Positions 4,116 through 16,525 of a stretch of DNA of 36,928 nt are shown one piece after another; position 1 is the stretch's first letter, and each line of letters starts with the position of its first letter. The notes under the pieces were generated by a model. It ran no database searches and was not told the origin of the DNA. It saw only the letters and a program-made list of their open reading frames with translations. This DNA comes from a virus, in IMG/VR virus record IMGVR_UViG_3300015189_000034, positions 1-36,928 of that record, one strand, 5' to 3'. The translations under genes were made by a program, and so were the position numbers.

Positions 4116-5833
4116 TGCGCACCCTCGACCTCGGCGTGCAGCACGTCGGCAACCACCCGTACAACGTCGAGCTGCCCCTCGACTTCATCACCGAGTCGTC
4201 GGCGATCCTCGCTAAGAAGGGCGCCGGCAAGACCAACGCGCTCATCGTCCTCCTGGAGGAAGCCGCGGCCGCCGGAGTGCCTGTCGTGTCGATCGACCCG
4301 AAGGGTGACCACTGGGGCCTCCGGGCAGGGTCGGAGGAACACCCTCGCGCTGGTCTGCCGATTCCGGTGTTCGGTGGACTCCACGGTGACGTGCCGCTCG
4401 AACCGACAGCCGGCGCCTACATCGCCGACCTGATCCGCGACCGTGCCCTCTCGGCGGTCCTCGACGTCTCAGAGTTCACGATCGGCGAGCGCGCCCGATT
4501 CCTGACGGCGTTCGCCGATCGGCTGTACCGATTCGACTCGCACGAGCCCATGCTGCTCGGGCTCGAGGAAGCGCACGAGTACATCCCGCAGATGGTCCGC
4601 GGCGAAGAGGCGCGGATGGTGGGCGGGTTCGAGCGGCTCGTGAAGTTGGGTAGGTCGAAGGGCCTCGGCGTCGTCATGGTGACGCAGCGGTCCGCGTCGC
4701 TGAACAAGAACGTGCTGACGCAGGTCGACAACCTCTTCGTGATGCGCACGACGTCGCCGCAGGACCGCGCAGCCGTCACGGCCTGGTTGGACACGAACGC
4801 TGACCGCGGAGTACTCGACGGCCTCGGAGGCCTGCAGACAGGCGAGGTCGTGCTCGTGCAGCCCGCCCGGGGCGAACCCCTGCGCTTCCGGTTCCGCATG
4901 CGTCACACGTTCGACGCGGGGCAGACGCCGAAGGTGGGCGAGAAGCGCCGGGAGCCGGCGACGATCGCCGACGTTGACCTGACAGCGATCGCCGCGGCCA
5001 TGTCCGAGACGATCGAGAAGGCGAAAGCTGACGACCCGAAGGTGTTGCGGGCGACGATCGCCGACCTGCAGAAGCAGCTCGCGGCTCGTCCGACTGAAGA
5101 GGTCGTGCGCGAGGTCGAGGTGCGCGTCGAGGTTCCGATGCTCACCGAGGACGATGAGCGGGTCCTCGCCGAGATCGACGGGATGCTCCGCGGGCTCGCG
5201 CACGTGCTGCCCCTGCACACAGGGATCGCGCAGAAGGTCGCGGCCACGAAAGCGCCCGTCGCTGTACGCCCGCCTGCGCCGACGAAGGTTCAGACGCCCG
5301 TTCCCCCACGGCCCGCATCCAACATCGGCCAGCACGATGCTGGCGATGCTGGCGTGGTGTTGCGGGCTGGTGCTCGCCGCATGGTGGAGACGCTCGGCCG
5401 GATGCATCCGCTGCACCTGACGAAGGCCCAGTGGGGCACCGTGTCGGGTCTGAAGACGACTGGCGGAACCTGGTCGACGTACTTCGGTGAGTTGAAGCGG
5501 CTCGGGTTCATCGACCAGGACCAGGCGGGGTTCTTCCTCACCGCGGCGGGCTTCGACTTCATCGGTGGGCAACCCGATCCGATGACGGCCGGCGAACTGC
5601 AGCAGCACTACCGCACGATCCTCCGCGCGGGTGCGGTGAAGATGCTCGACGCCGTGATGGCCGCGTATCCGTCCGGGCTGTCGAAGGAGCAGATCGGGGA
5701 GGCCGCGGAGATCGTCACGACTGGCGGCACGTTCTCGACCTACCTCGGCGACCTGAAGCGCAACGGACTGGTCGAACAAGACGGCGCGGAGTACTTCGCG
5801 ACCGATGTGCTCATGAAGGGAGCAGCCGCCTGA
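4115..5833 (+). CDS. HerA/DUF87-like ATPase with two C-terminal winged-helix repeats
   Basis: 572 residues. Walker A is GAGKTN (36-41); a Walker B-like segment LLGLEEAHEYIPQ (147-159) has Glu where Asp is usual before EAH; GRSKGLGVVMVTQR (179-192) and TQVDNLFVMRTTSPQDRAAV (202-221) match the sensor and arginine-finger regions of HerA-type hexameric translocases. A helical linker (290-400) leads to two similar modules (about 417-480 and 504-567), each with a TTGGT(W/F)STY(F/L)G(E/D)LKR signature, read as tandem winged helices. It probably moves along or remodels double-stranded DNA. No NurA-type nuclease is adjacent; the YqaJ nuclease two genes upstream may be its partner (inference). Confidence 0.8.
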   Translation: MRTLDLGVQHVGNHPYNVELPLDFITESSAILAKKGAGKTNALIVLLEEAAAAGVPVVSIDPKGDHWGLRAGSEEHPRAGLPIPVFGGLHGDVPLEPTAGAYIADLIRDRALSAVLDVSEFTIGERARFLTAFADRLYRFDSHEPMLLGLEEAHEYIPQMVRGEEARMVGGFERLVKLGRSKGLGVVMVTQRSASLNKNVLTQVDNLFVMRTTSPQDRAAVTAWLDTNADRGVLDGLGGLQTGEVVLVQPARGEPLRFRFRMRHTFDAGQTPKVGEKRREPATIADVDLTAIAAAMSETIEKAKADDPKVLRATIADLQKQLAARPTEEVVREVEVRVEVPMLTEDDERVLAEIDGMLRGLAHVLPLHTGIAQKVAATKAPVAVRPPAPTKVQTPVPPRPASNIGQHDAGDAGVVLRAGARRMVETLGRMHPLHLTKAQWGTVSGLKTTGGTWSTYFGELKRLGFIDQDQAGFFLTAAGFDFIGGQPDPMTAGELQQHYRTILRAGAVKMLDAVMAAYPSGLSKEQIGEAAEIVTTGGTFSTYLGDLKRNGLVEQDGAEYFATDVLMKGAAA

Positions 5834-6200: not shown

Positions 6201-6637
6201 TGCCTTCGGGCGTCGTCGACGAGTTGGAGCCGAACGAATGGAACACACCGGAGTACCTGCCATGGATGAACGACGCGCTGTGCGCGGAGACGGATCCGGA
6301 GGCGTTCTTCCCCGAGAAGGGCGGCTCGACGAGGGACGCGAAGAAGATCTGCACGGCGTGCGAGGTGAAGGAGCAATGTCTCGACTTCGCGCTCGAGCGG
6401 GACGAGCGCTTCGGAATCTGGGGCGGCCTGTCGGTGCGGGAGCGGCGGAAGTTGCGTCGTCCACGCCAATCGCCGGCTCAGAAGGCAGCGGAGGCGATGG
6501 CGGCTCGGTTGCCGAAGTTTCAGCGCCTGTACGACCTGGGCCTGATGGACACGGAGATCGCGATCGAGAACGGGAACCTGCCGCCGAACGGCGTCGGCGG
6601 GTATCGGAGAAGCAAGAGAAGGGAGGACCCGGCATGA
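6200..6637 (+). CDS. WhiB-family iron-sulfur transcription factor
   Basis: 145 residues. Four Cys ligands for a [4Fe-4S] cluster are at C28, C51, C54 and C60 (C-x22-C-x2-C-x5-C), followed by the G[VI]WGG turn (72-76) and a basic stretch (about 79-90) expected to contact DNA. This is the complete WhiB (Wbl) signature. Known members act with the host primary sigma factor, so it may redirect host or phage transcription. It is longer than most phage Wbl proteins owing to a C-terminal helical region (about 92-145) with another basic end. Start overlaps the preceding stop by one base; the end overlaps the next ATG (ATGA). Confidence 0.93.
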   Translation: MPSGVVDELEPNEWNTPEYLPWMNDALCAETDPEAFFPEKGGSTRDAKKICTACEVKEQCLDFALERDERFGIWGGLSVRERRKLRRPRQSPAQKAAEAMAARLPKFQRLYDLGLMDTEIAIENGNLPPNGVGGYRRSKRREDPA

Positions 6638-7452
6638 ACGGATCCGACGTGTTGCTGGATGACGGGTCGTTCCCCCACGGGACGCCGCAAGGTTGGGAAG
6701 ACGGTTGCCGTGGCGGCTCATGCCCGGCCGCGCGCGAGGACGGGCTGCTCTCGTGCGCCCAGGCGAAGATCCGCTACAACGGCGACTTCGCGTACAAGCG
6801 GATGGTCGACGGCGGGATGACGCCTCAGCAGATCCGCGACGCCGATCAGGAGACGGCCGCGACGATCCGTTCGAAACCAGCCGCTCCGCCCGTCGCCGTC
6901 GAGCGTCCCTCCGAGCGCTTCCCGGATGCCGAGCCGCCGACCACCGATGTCGTGGCTGAGCCTCGCCCGTCGCCGTCGAGCGTCCCTCCGAGCGAGGACG
7001 TGCACGGCACGACCCGTGGGTACGGCCGTGGATGCCGTGGCACTGGCTGCCCGAACGTCGCACGAGGCGGAATCTCGTGCAGCGCTGCGCAGGCGGAATA
7101 CATGCGCCAGTACGCCGCCCGCAAGAAGGCGGAGAAGGCCGAAGCCGAGCAGTCGTCGGTGAAGCCGCCGAAGAAGGACGTGGTGCCGGATCCGGTACCC
7201 GAGGTTGTGGAGGCGGCACCCGACGCCGCTCCCGAAGTGAAGGAGAGCATCGTGGCAGAGACAGGCGTCGCCGAGCGCGGCGAAAAGACGGAGGCGGCCG
7301 CGGTGCCGCTGCAGGGGCAGGCCGTGGGCCTCCGCATCGACCCGGACGGACACGGTGTCGAGATCATCCTCGGCGCCGGCGGTGAGACGGTCCGCGTCGA
7401 GCTGCAGGTCGACGGCCGGATCACGGGCGTCGCGATGAAGGTCGGCGCCTGA
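6634..7452 (+). CDS. Protein with two HGTxxGxxxGCRGxxC modules
   Basis: Start taken at the ATGA overlap with the WhiB stop; a longer in-frame reading from 6238 would lie inside the WhiB gene. 272 residues. Two similar Cys modules, each beginning with HGT, then G(W/Y)..GCRG..CP and a later SC..A...Y, occupy about 15-56 and 123-163. They are joined by a Pro/Ser-rich linker and followed by an Ala/Glu-rich linker and a small beta-rich domain (about 228-272). The modules look like zinc knuckles related to the GCRCxxC motif in the protein at 9391. DNA binding is plausible but not shown. Confidence 0.72.
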   Translation: MNGSDVLLDDGSFPHGTPQGWEDGCRGGSCPAAREDGLLSCAQAKIRYNGDFAYKRMVDGGMTPQQIRDADQETAATIRSKPAAPPVAVERPSERFPDAEPPTTDVVAEPRPSPSSVPPSEDVHGTTRGYGRGCRGTGCPNVARGGISCSAAQAEYMRQYAARKKAEKAEAEQSSVKPPKKDVVPDPVPEVVEAAPDAAPEVKESIVAETGVAERGEKTEAAAVPLQGQAVGLRIDPDGHGVEIILGAGGETVRVELQVDGRITGVAMKVGA

Positions 7453-12634: not shown

Positions 12635-12996
12635 GGGCGCCGAAGCGGGTGCAGATCCGTCGCGACGTCGCCTGGCAGGACCGTGACAACCCGGCGGTGA
12701 AGGTCGACCGGAGCACGAAGTGGGGCAACCCGTCACGCGTGCAGCACTCCGGCGATGAACGGACGGCCCGGCAGTGGGCGGTGGACTTCTTCGTCGGCTA
12801 CGTGACGACGATGCAGGGTGCCGGCCACTACGTCCACGGATCCCCACACGGAACCAACCTCGATGAGTTGCGGGGTCGCGATCTTGCTTGTTGGTGCAAA
12901 CCGACAGACCCCTGTCATGCCGATTACCTATTGGAGATTGCAAATGCGCCCCGTCGACTATTCCAAGATCACGGCGAAGATCTGCTCGAGATGTAA
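12631..12996 (+). CDS. DUF4326 protein
   Basis: 121 residues from a GTG overlapping the preceding stop. KWGNPSRV (30-37), the central Arg/Ala helix, ELRGRDLACWCKP and CHADYLLE match the DUF4326 family (KWGNP...L.G..LACWC.P..CH...L). The function of DUF4326 is unknown; the conserved Cys and His residues suggest metal or nucleotide binding. Its last 53 bases are overlapped by the start of the endonuclease VII gene in another frame, a much deeper overlap than elsewhere in this cluster. Confidence 0.85.
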   Translation: MRAPKRVQIRRDVAWQDRDNPAVKVDRSTKWGNPSRVQHSGDERTARQWAVDFFVGYVTTMQGAGHYVHGSPHGTNLDELRGRDLACWCKPTDPCHADYLLEIANAPRRLFQDHGEDLLEM

Positions 12997-13679: not shown

Positions 13680-13954
13680 GCGACGAGGAAGTGGAAGACA
13701 TGATCTACAGGGCATCTGCTGGCCCGCAGCTCGAGGTACTCAGGCACCACGCTGCGGGCCTCTTCGAGGTGACGCCTCGAATTGAAATTGAGGCGTCGAT
13801 GCTCGCAGAGCTCGGAGTCTCGCCTGGCGACGTTGCCCGAGCCTGTGATGCCTGGTTGAACAGTCGCCGCGTCGTGGACGACTGGGCGTATATCCGGACG
13901 GTGCTGTTCGTGCGTGAAGCCGACCGTCGCGAGCGTGAGGAAGAAGATCGATGA
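13676..13954 (+). CDS. Hypothetical protein (92 aa)
   Basis: Start at GTG 13676 in a GTGA overlap; a longer reading would run inside the previous gene. The acidic N-terminus is followed by a helical body (SMLAELGVSPGDVARACDAW) resembling a compact helix-turn-helix, and a charged C-terminus (REREEEDR). No family recognised. Its place directly before the replication initiator could indicate a partner role (inference only). Confidence 0.65.
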   Translation: MSDEEVEDMIYRASAGPQLEVLRHHAAGLFEVTPRIEIEASMLAELGVSPGDVARACDAWLNSRRVVDDWAYIRTVLFVREADRREREEEDR

Positions 13955-14724
13955 CCGCCGGCGTACCTGCTGATCTCCTGATCGGCGACGACCACATTCA
14001 GGTCAAGGCCGCGCTGGTCGCGTACCTCGGCGGAGGCAACGCGGCGCTTGTCTTCCACCGGATCAAGTACCGGACCCAGCACGTCTCTTACTCGTATCCC
14101 CGCGACGGGCTGCAGTGGTGGAAGGCCAAGGAGAAGAAGATCGGAGCCGAGGTTGGCCTCACTGAGTCGCAGGTGAACACCGCCGTGAAGAACCTGTTGA
14201 AGAGGGGCGCGATCCGTAAAGAGGCGCACTCGTATCCGGATCAGACGTGGTCGTACGCGGTGGTGATCGCCGAATCGGGAGATTCCAGGATTGGCGGTGA
14301 GCGCGGCCTCAAATCTCCCGATTCCAAGGCGGAGATTTCGGGCTTGCAAGGCGGAGATTTGCCGATTCCTCCTTTAGCTGAAGAAAGAGAAGAAGCTGAA
14401 GAAGCTCTTCTGTCCGACGCTGGCGCATCGGACAGAGTTCTGTTCCCTCGGGATTGGCGCCCCAGCCAGGCGCACATGGACAAGGCAGCGTCGCTCCACC
14501 TCGACGTGGTGCGCGAATACCAGCGGTTCCGTACCCATTCGGAGCGTCGGCACCGTCGCCTGAAGAACTGGAACGCGGGCTTCACAAACTGGCTGCGTAA
14601 ACAGGCGGAGTTCAACCAAGAGGCCCTTGGGTCGTCGGGCAAGCCGACCACAGTCGATCACGGTCGCGAAGTGGACCGCATGCTCGCCGCCGAAGAGTCG
14701 CAGCAGCTGGCGGTGACGAGGTGA
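13951..14724 (+). CDS. Replication initiator-like protein
   Basis: 257 residues. The N-terminal half (about 15-105) holds a winged-helix-like domain with KKIGAEVGLTESQVNTAVKN followed by LLKRGAIRKE, as in phage O-type and DnaD-like initiators. A low-complexity linker (about 108-150) is encoded by a repeat cluster. The C-terminal part (about 167-220) has WRPSQAHM...VVREYQRFR and LKNWNAGFTNWLRKQ, matching the DnaT/DnaD-type tail that contacts ssDNA or helicase (F...W...F..WL). Directly downstream lie a helicase-loader-like gene and DnaB, so this is a standard initiator-loader-helicase set. The internal repeats suggest the origin lies inside this gene, as in lambda O. Confidence 0.8.
   Translation: MTAGVPADLLIGDDHIQVKAALVAYLGGGNAALVFHRIKYRTQHVSYSYPRDGLQWWKAKEKKIGAEVGLTESQVNTAVKNLLKRGAIRKEAHSYPDQTWSYAVVIAESGDSRIGGERGLKSPDSKAEISGLQGGDLPIPPLAEEREEAEEALLSDAGASDRVLFPRDWRPSQAHMDKAASLHLDVVREYQRFRTHSERRHRRLKNWNAGFTNWLRKQAEFNQEALGSSGKPTTVDHGREVDRMLAAEESQQLAVTR
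14272..14410 (+). other. Candidate replication origin: iterons in initiator gene
   Basis: A 13-bp perfect inverted repeat (GAATCGGGAGATT at 14272-14284, its complement at 14312-14324) is followed by a 14-bp perfect direct repeat (CAAGGCGGAGATTT at 14325-14338 and 14347-14360, period 22 bases). Together they give four copies of GGAGATT (starts 14278, 14331 and 14353 on plus; 14312-14318 on minus). CCGATTCC also recurs 44 bases apart (14318, 14362). A purine-rich, less GC-rich tract (about 14372-14410) follows, like the AT-rich unwinding part beside iterons. Position in the initiator linker mirrors lambda ori in gene O. Function is inferred. Confidence 0.62.
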
Positions 14725-15146
14725 ACGCGCGTGAGGTGAACATCCTGCTGACGAAGGCCGCGCTGCGGGATCCGCGGATGAAGCGGGTCAACGCGGCCGA
14801 GCAGAAGGACATGGCCGTCGAGTGGGCGACCGACCTCGCCGGCGTCTCGTTGGATGACGCGCTCGAGGCGGTGCGCGCGCACTACGCGGTGTCGCGGGAG
14901 CCGATCATGATCGCCGACATCCTCGAACGCTGCGGTGTCGTCGAAGACCCGTGGGAGCACCTTCCCGATGTCGATGCGGAGCTCGCGCCGATCCGACGCG
15001 AACGTGCGCTCGAGGCGGCTGGTGTGACCGAGGAAGAGTTCGCGGCGAACTGGCGGGACCCCGAATGGCGGGCGCTGAAGTTCCCGCCCCAGGTTGACGG
15101 GCCCGGATGGCCGAAGGAGATCGAGGGGCGCGACCAATGGCTGTGA
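14721..15146 (+). CDS. Helicase loader-like protein
   Basis: 141 residues from a GTG overlapping the initiator stop. The N-terminal region (LLTKAALRDPRMKRVNAAEQKDMAVEW segment, then SLDDALEAVRAHYAVSREPIMIADIL) has the helix pattern of replicative helicase loaders of the G39P type (W..L.....A..A...HY.......I...DI). The tail has ERALEAAGVTEEEF and a DPEWRAL stretch. Its place between initiator and DnaB supports loading the helicase, but the family match is remote. The stop overlaps the DnaB start by ten bases. Confidence 0.6.
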   Translation: MNAREVNILLTKAALRDPRMKRVNAAEQKDMAVEWATDLAGVSLDDALEAVRAHYAVSREPIMIADILERCGVVEDPWEHLPDVDAELAPIRRERALEAAGVTEEEFAANWRDPEWRALKFPPQVDGPGWPKEIEGRDQWL

Positions 15147-16525
15147 ACGACGACGAGTACACCCCGAACGACTCCGACGCTCCCGACGAGGACGGCATCG
15201 TCGCACGCGTTCCACCGCACGATCTGCTCGCCGAACAGTCCGTGCTCGGCGCGATGATGCTCGCCGACTTGATCCGCGACCGCGACATCGTCGATGACGT
15301 CACCGACCGCATGAATCCGGGCGACTTCTACCTCGAGAAGCACCAGTACATCGCCAAGGCGATCGTCACCCTCCACCGAGCGGGAAAGCCGACCGACGTC
15401 ATCGCGGTCACCGACGAGCTCACCCGAACGGGGATGCTGCGACGTGCTGGCGACGCCGAATACCTGCACACCCTCACCGCTGCAGTCCCGAACGTCGCGG
15501 CCGCGGGATCGTACGCCGAGATCGTCGCGGAGAAGGCGGTCATGCGGGGCCTCGTCGTCGTCGGTACTCACCTGGTTGCGAAGGGCTACGCGTCCGAGGG
15601 GACCGTCGAGGAGCTCGTCGAGTCCGCCCGCGCCGAGGTCGAGTCCCTCGTCGGCCGCCGCCGGTTGGTTGTCTCATCGGTCGGGGAGACGTTCGACGCG
15701 TTCATCGAAGATCTCGACAAGGCCCCCGACTACATGCCGACTCCATGGGAGTCACTGAACTACCGCGTCGGTGGATTCACCCCGGGAGGCCTGTACATCG
15801 CGGCGGCTCGGCCCGGGGCGGGAAAGAGCATCACGCTGCTGCAGTCGGCCATCCACGCCGCCCACTATGGAGGGGTTGCGTTGTCGTCGCTTGAGATGGA
15901 CGTCCCGGAACTTCAGCAGCGTCTGCTCGCGCAGTACGGCGGCATCGAGATGGGTGTCATCCGCTCCCGCAACCTCACCGACCTGGACTGGAAACTCGCC
16001 GCGGAAGCCCGCAGTCGGCTGATGGACGCGCCGCTGTTCATCGACCCCAGCCACGGGGTGACCGTGTCGCACATTCGCGCGCACGCTCGCGCTGTCCTCC
16101 GCCGCCACGGGTCGCTGTCACTCATCGCGGTCGACTACCTGCAGCTGGTCGAGGGTGAAGGCCGCGACAGGCAGGAGACGGTGTCGAACGTCGCTCTCGC
16201 GTTGAAGAACCTCGCGAAGGACCTGAACGTGCCCGTGCTCGCGGCCGCGCAACTCAACCGAGGTGCACCCGCCCGCGGTGGAAAGACGATCGCCCCGACG
16301 CTGCGGGATCTGCGCGAGTCGGGCGGTATCGAGAACAACGCCGACGTCGTGATTCTCATGGACCGGCCGGATGAGAAGCGTGACGAGATCGAGTTCATCA
16401 TCGCGAAGAACCGCCACGGGTCGCAGGGGCGTTTCAAGTTGCTGTGGCAGGGGCAGTTCGCCCGTCTGAAGGACCGTCAGGGTGACCCGTTCGACGGGTT
16501 GTTCCCGAGAGAGGAAGCCCTGTGA
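15137..16525 (+). CDS. DnaB-type replicative helicase
   Basis: 462 residues from ATG 15137, with GAGGGG upstream; an in-frame ATG at 15107 lies further inside the previous gene and lacks a good ribosome site. The N-terminal domain begins PPHDLLAEQSVLGAMM (26-41), the family signature. The RecA-like domain has Walker A RPGAGKS (225-231), SLEM (251-254), Walker B region VDYLQL (332-337), AQLNR (371-375), LRESGGIENNAD (392-403) and AKNRHG. Complete and normal in length. It unwinds DNA 5'-3' at the phage fork as a hexamer. Confidence 0.95.
   Translation: MAVNDDEYTPNDSDAPDEDGIVARVPPHDLLAEQSVLGAMMLADLIRDRDIVDDVTDRMNPGDFYLEKHQYIAKAIVTLHRAGKPTDVIAVTDELTRTGMLRRAGDAEYLHTLTAAVPNVAAAGSYAEIVAEKAVMRGLVVVGTHLVAKGYASEGTVEELVESARAEVESLVGRRRLVVSSVGETFDAFIEDLDKAPDYMPTPWESLNYRVGGFTPGGLYIAAARPGAGKSITLLQSAIHAAHYGGVALSSLEMDVPELQQRLLAQYGGIEMGVIRSRNLTDLDWKLAAEARSRLMDAPLFIDPSHGVTVSHIRAHARAVLRRHGSLSLIAVDYLQLVEGEGRDRQETVSNVALALKNLAKDLNVPVLAAAQLNRGAPARGGKTIAPTLRDLRESGGIENNADVVILMDRPDEKRDEIEFIIAKNRHGSQGRFKLLWQGQFARLKDRQGDPFDGLFPREEAL

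Follow-up and report, generated by a model that had tools for sequence, protein, structure and literature searches.

Positions 14272 to 14413 of the virus record IMGVR_UViG_3300015189_000034 very likely constitute a phage replication origin of the lambda/SPP1 type, embedded in the gene for its own initiator. The window that we analyzed is the whole IMG/VR record (36,928 bp, 66.7% GC), from an actinobacterial virus. Support for an origin came from the repeats themselves, from their excess at the DNA level, from the AT minimum of the record, from an architecture conserved among relatives, and from the way in which particular repeat types go with particular HTH types.

Initiator gene and replication operon

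The gene that holds the repeats encodes an initiator with an N-terminal HTH, and its operon includes a gene for a helicase of the DnaB type, as in the SPP1 module. Positions are those of the window.

13951 to 14724, plus strand: O-like replication initiator gene, 257 aa (open reading frame; PHROG initiation families)
13984 to 14268, plus strand: part coding for the N-terminal winged HTH, putatively the domain that binds the iterons (40% identity to the N-termini of L010 to L012; weak HTH Pfam matches)
14431 to 14652, plus strand: conserved C-terminal domain, putatively for helicase/loader recruitment (62 to 68% identical to L002 and L003)
14721 to 15146, plus strand: 141-aa gene after the initiator and before the helicase, a candidate loader from its position alone (homologues in the equivalent place in L002, L003, L014, and L015)
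15107 to 16525, plus strand: DnaB-type replicative helicase (Pfam DnaB_C, 3.5e-62; DnaB N, 3.6e-25; phrog_19, 7.6e-93)

The C-terminal part of the initiator matched phrog_1032 best among several PHROG replication initiation families (E = 6e-5), and the N-terminal part matched the O-like family phrog_391 (E = 0.007). Matches to O-like PHROGs were weak (E = 0.007 to 0.28), and the initiator was not filed as a lambda O homologue. HTH matches in Pfam fell below the cut-offs, as did a weak DnaT-like match of the C-terminal domain; L010 to L012, with N-termini ~40% identical to that of the window, are prophage initiators with other C-termini. An AlphaFold model of the single sequence (pLDDT of 39) was too poor for use. 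The nearest partial relatives of the initiator were a gut phage contig and a Microbacterium prophage, and those of the helicase were Microbacterium phages. The 141-aa gene overlaps the 3′ end of the initiator gene, and its position and size fit a loader; neither Pfam nor the PDB, including 1NO1, gave a match that would identify it as gp39-like.

Probable iterons and AT-rich tract in the linker-coding region

A preliminary description of this DNA had reported four copies of GGAGATT within about 90 bases of the linker-coding part of the initiator gene, organized as a 13-bp perfect inverted repeat and a 14-bp direct repeat with a 22-base period, beside a purine-rich, less GC-rich tract. Each of these elements was recovered. 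The copies, at 14278 (+), 14312 (−), 14331 (+), and 14353 (+), fall within 83 bp (14278 to 14359), between the DNA-binding and C-terminal parts of the gene, and make up four of the five copies in the 36,928 bp; the sole other copy is at 12933.

14272 to 14284, plus strand: iteron 1, GAATCGGGAGATT, one arm of the 13-bp perfect inverted repeat
14312 to 14324, minus strand: iteron 2, inverted copy AATCTCCCGATTC, the other arm
14325 to 14338, plus strand: iteron 3, CAAGGCGGAGATTT, first unit of the 14-bp direct repeat
14347 to 14360, plus strand: iteron 4, CAAGGCGGAGATTT, second unit, 22 bp after iteron 3
14357 to 14369, minus strand: partial fifth copy, ATTTGCCGATTCC, 85% of 14313 to 14325
14354 to 14413, no strand: putative DNA unwinding element, the AT-richest 60-mer of the record (GC scan), with the direct repeat AGCTGAAGAA (14376, 14394)
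14409 to 14436, no strand: 12-bp inverted repeat TCTGTCCGACGC/GCATCGGACAGA at the 3′ edge of the region (repeat listing)

Because the GGAGATT copies lie in different frames and on different strands (frame 0, reverse, frame 2, and frame 0, which makes three frame/strand settings), they do not encode a single peptide repeat. Repetition was scored as repeated 8-mer pairs in the best 140-bp stretch and compared with synonymous-codon shuffles within the gene, which keep the protein and its codon use. The 140 bp here held 22 pairs, against a mean of 1.3 across the record and 2.9 in the shuffles; the shuffles gave 13 at most, and 0 of 2000 reached the observed value (P ≤ 0.0005). Comparable density occurs at three further places in the record, ~53 to 231 (a 12-bp tandem array), 6865 to 7014 (a perfect 31-bp direct repeat), and 4926 to 5065 (one 19-bp pair), so repeat density alone is not unique to the initiator linker. 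No second cluster of GGAGATT-type sites was found in the 36,928-bp record.

An AT-rich element adjoins the iterons, and the preliminary description had understated it: whichever length was scanned (30, 40, 50, 60, or 80 nt), the stretch with the lowest GC in the record fell at 14332 to 14413 (37 to 47% GC versus 66.7%), within or just 3′ of the iterons. Positions 14370 to 14409 are purine-rich with 40% GC, and the stretch after the iterons encodes a Glu/Ala-rich peptide. The AAG repeats of the purine tract were considered as DnaA trios, and this reading was dropped because the tract encodes this peptide and no DnaA-like initiator is involved. GC skew passes from 0.094 (9 to 14.3 kb) to 0.000 (14.3 to 19.8 kb) at the putative origin, a change that gene content could equally explain, and stays flat from ~14.3 kb to ~30 kb; the change is compatible with an origin at ~14.3 kb and is not decisive.

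From this arrangement we infer initiator binding, tract opening, and helicase loading. The N-terminal winged HTH of the initiator would bind about four iterons with a GGAGATT(T) core and form a nucleoprotein complex, strain from which would open the adjoining AT- and purine-rich tract at ~14354 to 14413. The C-terminal domain would then recruit the phage's own DnaB, perhaps through the 141-aa protein.

Conservation of the repeats among relatives

Scans of viral contigs with the single protein or an N-terminal alignment found no relatives, and a C-terminal alignment and genome searches were therefore used. Searching with a C-terminal domain profile yielded 62 viral loci, which together with earlier loci gave 43 nonredundant genes; 41 of these had sufficient length for the test. 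No relatives were found in the plasmid collection. The densest repeat cluster exceeded synonymous shuffles at P ≤ 0.01 in 34 of the 41 genes, a level that none of 43 control ORFs taken from these loci reached. The center of the densest stretch lay no more than 220 nt 5′ of the C-terminal domain in 38 of 41 genes, where about a third would be expected by position. When the genes were aligned on this domain, the repeat maximum lay between −120 and −40 nt, and the maximum of AT excess, between −60 and −40 nt, fell to its 3′ side. Five of the 41 relatives had no cluster that reached significance; at this sensitivity the signature is thus frequent without being universal. Lambda O, the positive control, gave a peak at 39004 to 39153 that encloses the four annotated iterons (39034 to 39118). 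The check proposed in the preliminary description, a comparison of initiator genes in relatives, supports its reading of the repeats as the phage origin: nearly all relatives with the C-terminal domain have a repeat cluster in this linker. The parallel with lambda gene O holds as well.

Repeat sequences follow the DNA-binding domain

The window and loci L002 and L003 have C-terminal domains that are 62 to 68% identical, with unrelated HTHs and unrelated repeats (GGAGATT in the window, ACCGGTCAC in L002, and CCGCAAGCGGTTCAG in L003). The C-terminal core is 94% identical between L002 and L003, which indicates a recent exchange. The converse was seen in the Gordonia and Mycobacterium phages Oregano, Whitney, Yoshi, Sbash, and Tortellini, which have a common HTH and keep TAACCC/AAGGGT-type repeats, with C-termini of several unrelated types: that of Oregano resembles that of Whitney, and those of Yoshi, Sbash, and Tortellini differ from both. 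Fitzgerald and Ruthy carry drifted repeat forms (GTTAACCCC and GTTGACCCC), and Mbo4 has TAACCC runs in a cluster that is not significant (P = 0.38).

Across the 41-gene set, a repeated 7-mer was shared by 21 of 63 pairs with related N-terminal parts, a figure explained in part by homologous linkers, versus 28 of 735 pairs with unrelated ones. Among the N-unrelated pairs, sharing did not differ between those with related C-terminal parts (10/226) and those without (18/509). The repeat sequence follows the DNA-binding domain, as expected if the product of the same gene binds the repeats. Within the window's own HTH family, L010 to L012 and the weaker relatives L089, L090, and L093 carry repeats such as GGGCGAATATGCCC, GGCGGCGAATCCGCC, and GGCGAAATCGCC, which in some cases recur with a period of 22 bp. 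At least two copies of GGCGRA occur in 6 of 7 linkers of this family (window included) versus 0 of 40 linkers with other HTHs; the motif was chosen post hoc, so this count is supportive and is not a test. Covariation in both directions is indirect evidence that each set of iterons is matched specifically to the HTH that its own gene encodes, and the relatives show exchange of the HTH domain and its matching repeats as a single unit.

Further repeats were noted among these and other loci. HTH_36-like initiators of quite different phages have the palindrome GGTCACAGTGACC as an iteron in their linkers (L002 at 2833 to 2929, L008, and L070), with diverged C-termini. The linker of RepA from Mycobacterium phage prophiGD102-1 (L076; repA at 1276 to 2094), a protein with relatives in >400 phage records, has the repeats TTGCGCGGATTTTGCGCGG and GGAACAGGGGAACAGGGG. 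Gordonia phage Oregano, an isolated and culturable phage, has clear in-gene iterons at 1600 to 1770 of locus L075 (~42,840 to 43,010 of its record, ON456355), where its origin is predicted; its initiator has relatives in >260 phage records, and no report of an origin for this phage was found.

Alternative explanations for the repeats

The repeats might be operator sites at which the initiator or another HTH regulator controls transcription of the replication operon, with replication starting elsewhere. HTH proteins often bind inverted repeats, of which there is a pair here, and lambda-type initiators possibly influence transcription as well. However, the sites are located ~320 bp into the gene and adjoin the tract that is AT-richest in the record; the arrangement of repeats and then AT excess is conserved at this place across unrelated HTH types; and where it has been mapped, in lambda and SPP1, it is an origin. 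We consider the operator reading very improbable.

Slightly less credible again is a recombination joint for swaps of HTH and C-terminal halves, in which origin function would be absent or secondary. Unrelated N- and C-terminal halves do join in the linker, but repeats that serve homology would have to be shared, and exchange partners do not share them: C-related, N-unrelated pairs had no more repeats in common than unrelated pairs, which counts against such a joint. We give least weight of all, close to none, to the idea that the repeats have no function in DNA and arise only because the protein linker is of low complexity. Linkers evolve fast, several encode repetitive peptides, and a portion of the Glu/Ala-rich stretch may be one such case, yet codon shuffles that preserve the protein never reached the repeat density seen in the initiator linker, 34 of 41 relatives likewise exceeded their shuffles, none of the 43 control genes did, and the copies occupy three frame/strand settings.

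In-gene origins in known systems

In-gene origins are reportedly treated as frequent already in the 2006 review of phage replication modules by Weigel and Seitz. Lambda, lambdoid phages, SPP1, and lactococcal phages all have established origins of this type (PMC7466680, PMC6316719, PMC8965321), and the window therefore adds another case of a known kind; by itself it is very probably an ordinary lambda/SPP1-type origin. In lambda, iterons in the middle of gene O are followed immediately 3′ by an AT-rich tract, and the N-terminal part of the initiator binds DNA (PMC7466680). The same order, within the initiator gene, is seen at 14272 to 14413. The iterons themselves are unrelated (four 18-bp sites spaced 20 to 24 bp in lambda; one of four inverted here), O-like profile similarity is weak, and lambda borrows host DnaB whereas this phage encodes its own.

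In gene order, SPP1 comes closer still. Its oriL, with repeats and an AT-rich element, lies in gene 38, followed by the gp39 loader and the gp40 helicase, and it has a second origin, oriR (PMC6316719). Genes 38, 39, and 40 encode 256, 126, and 442 aa, compared with 257, 141, and 472 aa for the overlapping genes here (PMC6316719). Sequence searches turned up no likeness of the 141-aa protein to gp39, and the window has no second GGAGATT-type cluster to set beside oriR. Replisome organizers of the lactococcal phages TP901-1 and Tuc2009 bind direct repeats in their own genes (PMC8965321); these are Firmicute phages, and the likeness is taken from their published description.

Among actinobacteriophages, the RepA-like initiators of the Oregano type share the N-terminal HTH, linker repeats, and tandem tract, and in Oregano and Whitney also a C-terminal domain of the same broad family; they differ in HTH family and in their TAACCC/AAGGGT-type iterons. 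RepA of mycobacteriophage Miko is proven to support plasmid replication, and the study that showed this suggests, by analogy with lambda, that the origin lies within or beside repA (PMC7157519). It too is a phage initiator with an N-terminal HTH, but our test found no in-gene repeat cluster in its gene (P = 0.28). Miko RepA was rejected as a model for lack of in-gene repeats and appears to be a different, plasmid-like type of initiator.

Most actinobacteriophage replication origins are unmapped, and a 2020 study of mycobacteriophage origins described the replication systems of mycobacteriophages as not well characterized, with the origin only suggested to lie within or beside repA (PMC7157519). 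The value added here is that movement of HTH and iterons as one cassette is demonstrated across actinobacterial and other phages; a literature search, in which coverage of subscription journals was poor, surfaced no paper that states this generally. The two-part signature, linker repeats beyond synonymous expectation and then an AT-rich tract, yields origin predictions at base resolution for many isolated phages, such as Oregano, and the paired HTH and iteron types are ready-made swap experiments on initiator specificity.

A second repeat element and other repeats

In most relatives, a second, unrelated family of short repeats (e.g., CTACTACTACAG, GAGATA, or GAACCATCA) lies between the iterons and the C-terminal domain. 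By a loose criterion, two separated repeat families were present in 40 of 41 genes, where 12.8 were expected from shuffles. This second element can be common to related initiators with different iterons, as is AAAGACA in L028, L031, L054, and L068. An obvious guess is that it is an unwinding or helicase-loading site. On balance we lean toward a two-cassette organization for many tailed-phage initiator genes, in which an HTH and its own iterons would travel as one unit of specificity plus origin. Through the linker, this unit would be connected to interchangeable C-terminal domains that recruit the helicase, and the site of opening or loading would be marked by a second tandem-repeat element that evolves on its own.

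Second tandem-repeat families, CTACTACTACAG or AAAGACA for example, were also noted across different iterons in the linkers of L007, L006, L021, L009, L028, L023, and others. Elsewhere in the window, seven tandem copies of the 12-bp unit GGTCCGGGATCA at 87 to 194, apparently within an ORF at 37 to 861, form the most repeat-dense place of the record, and a perfect 31-bp direct repeat (6887 to 6917 and 6964 to 6994, 77 bp apart) lies in an ORF at 6238 to 7452.
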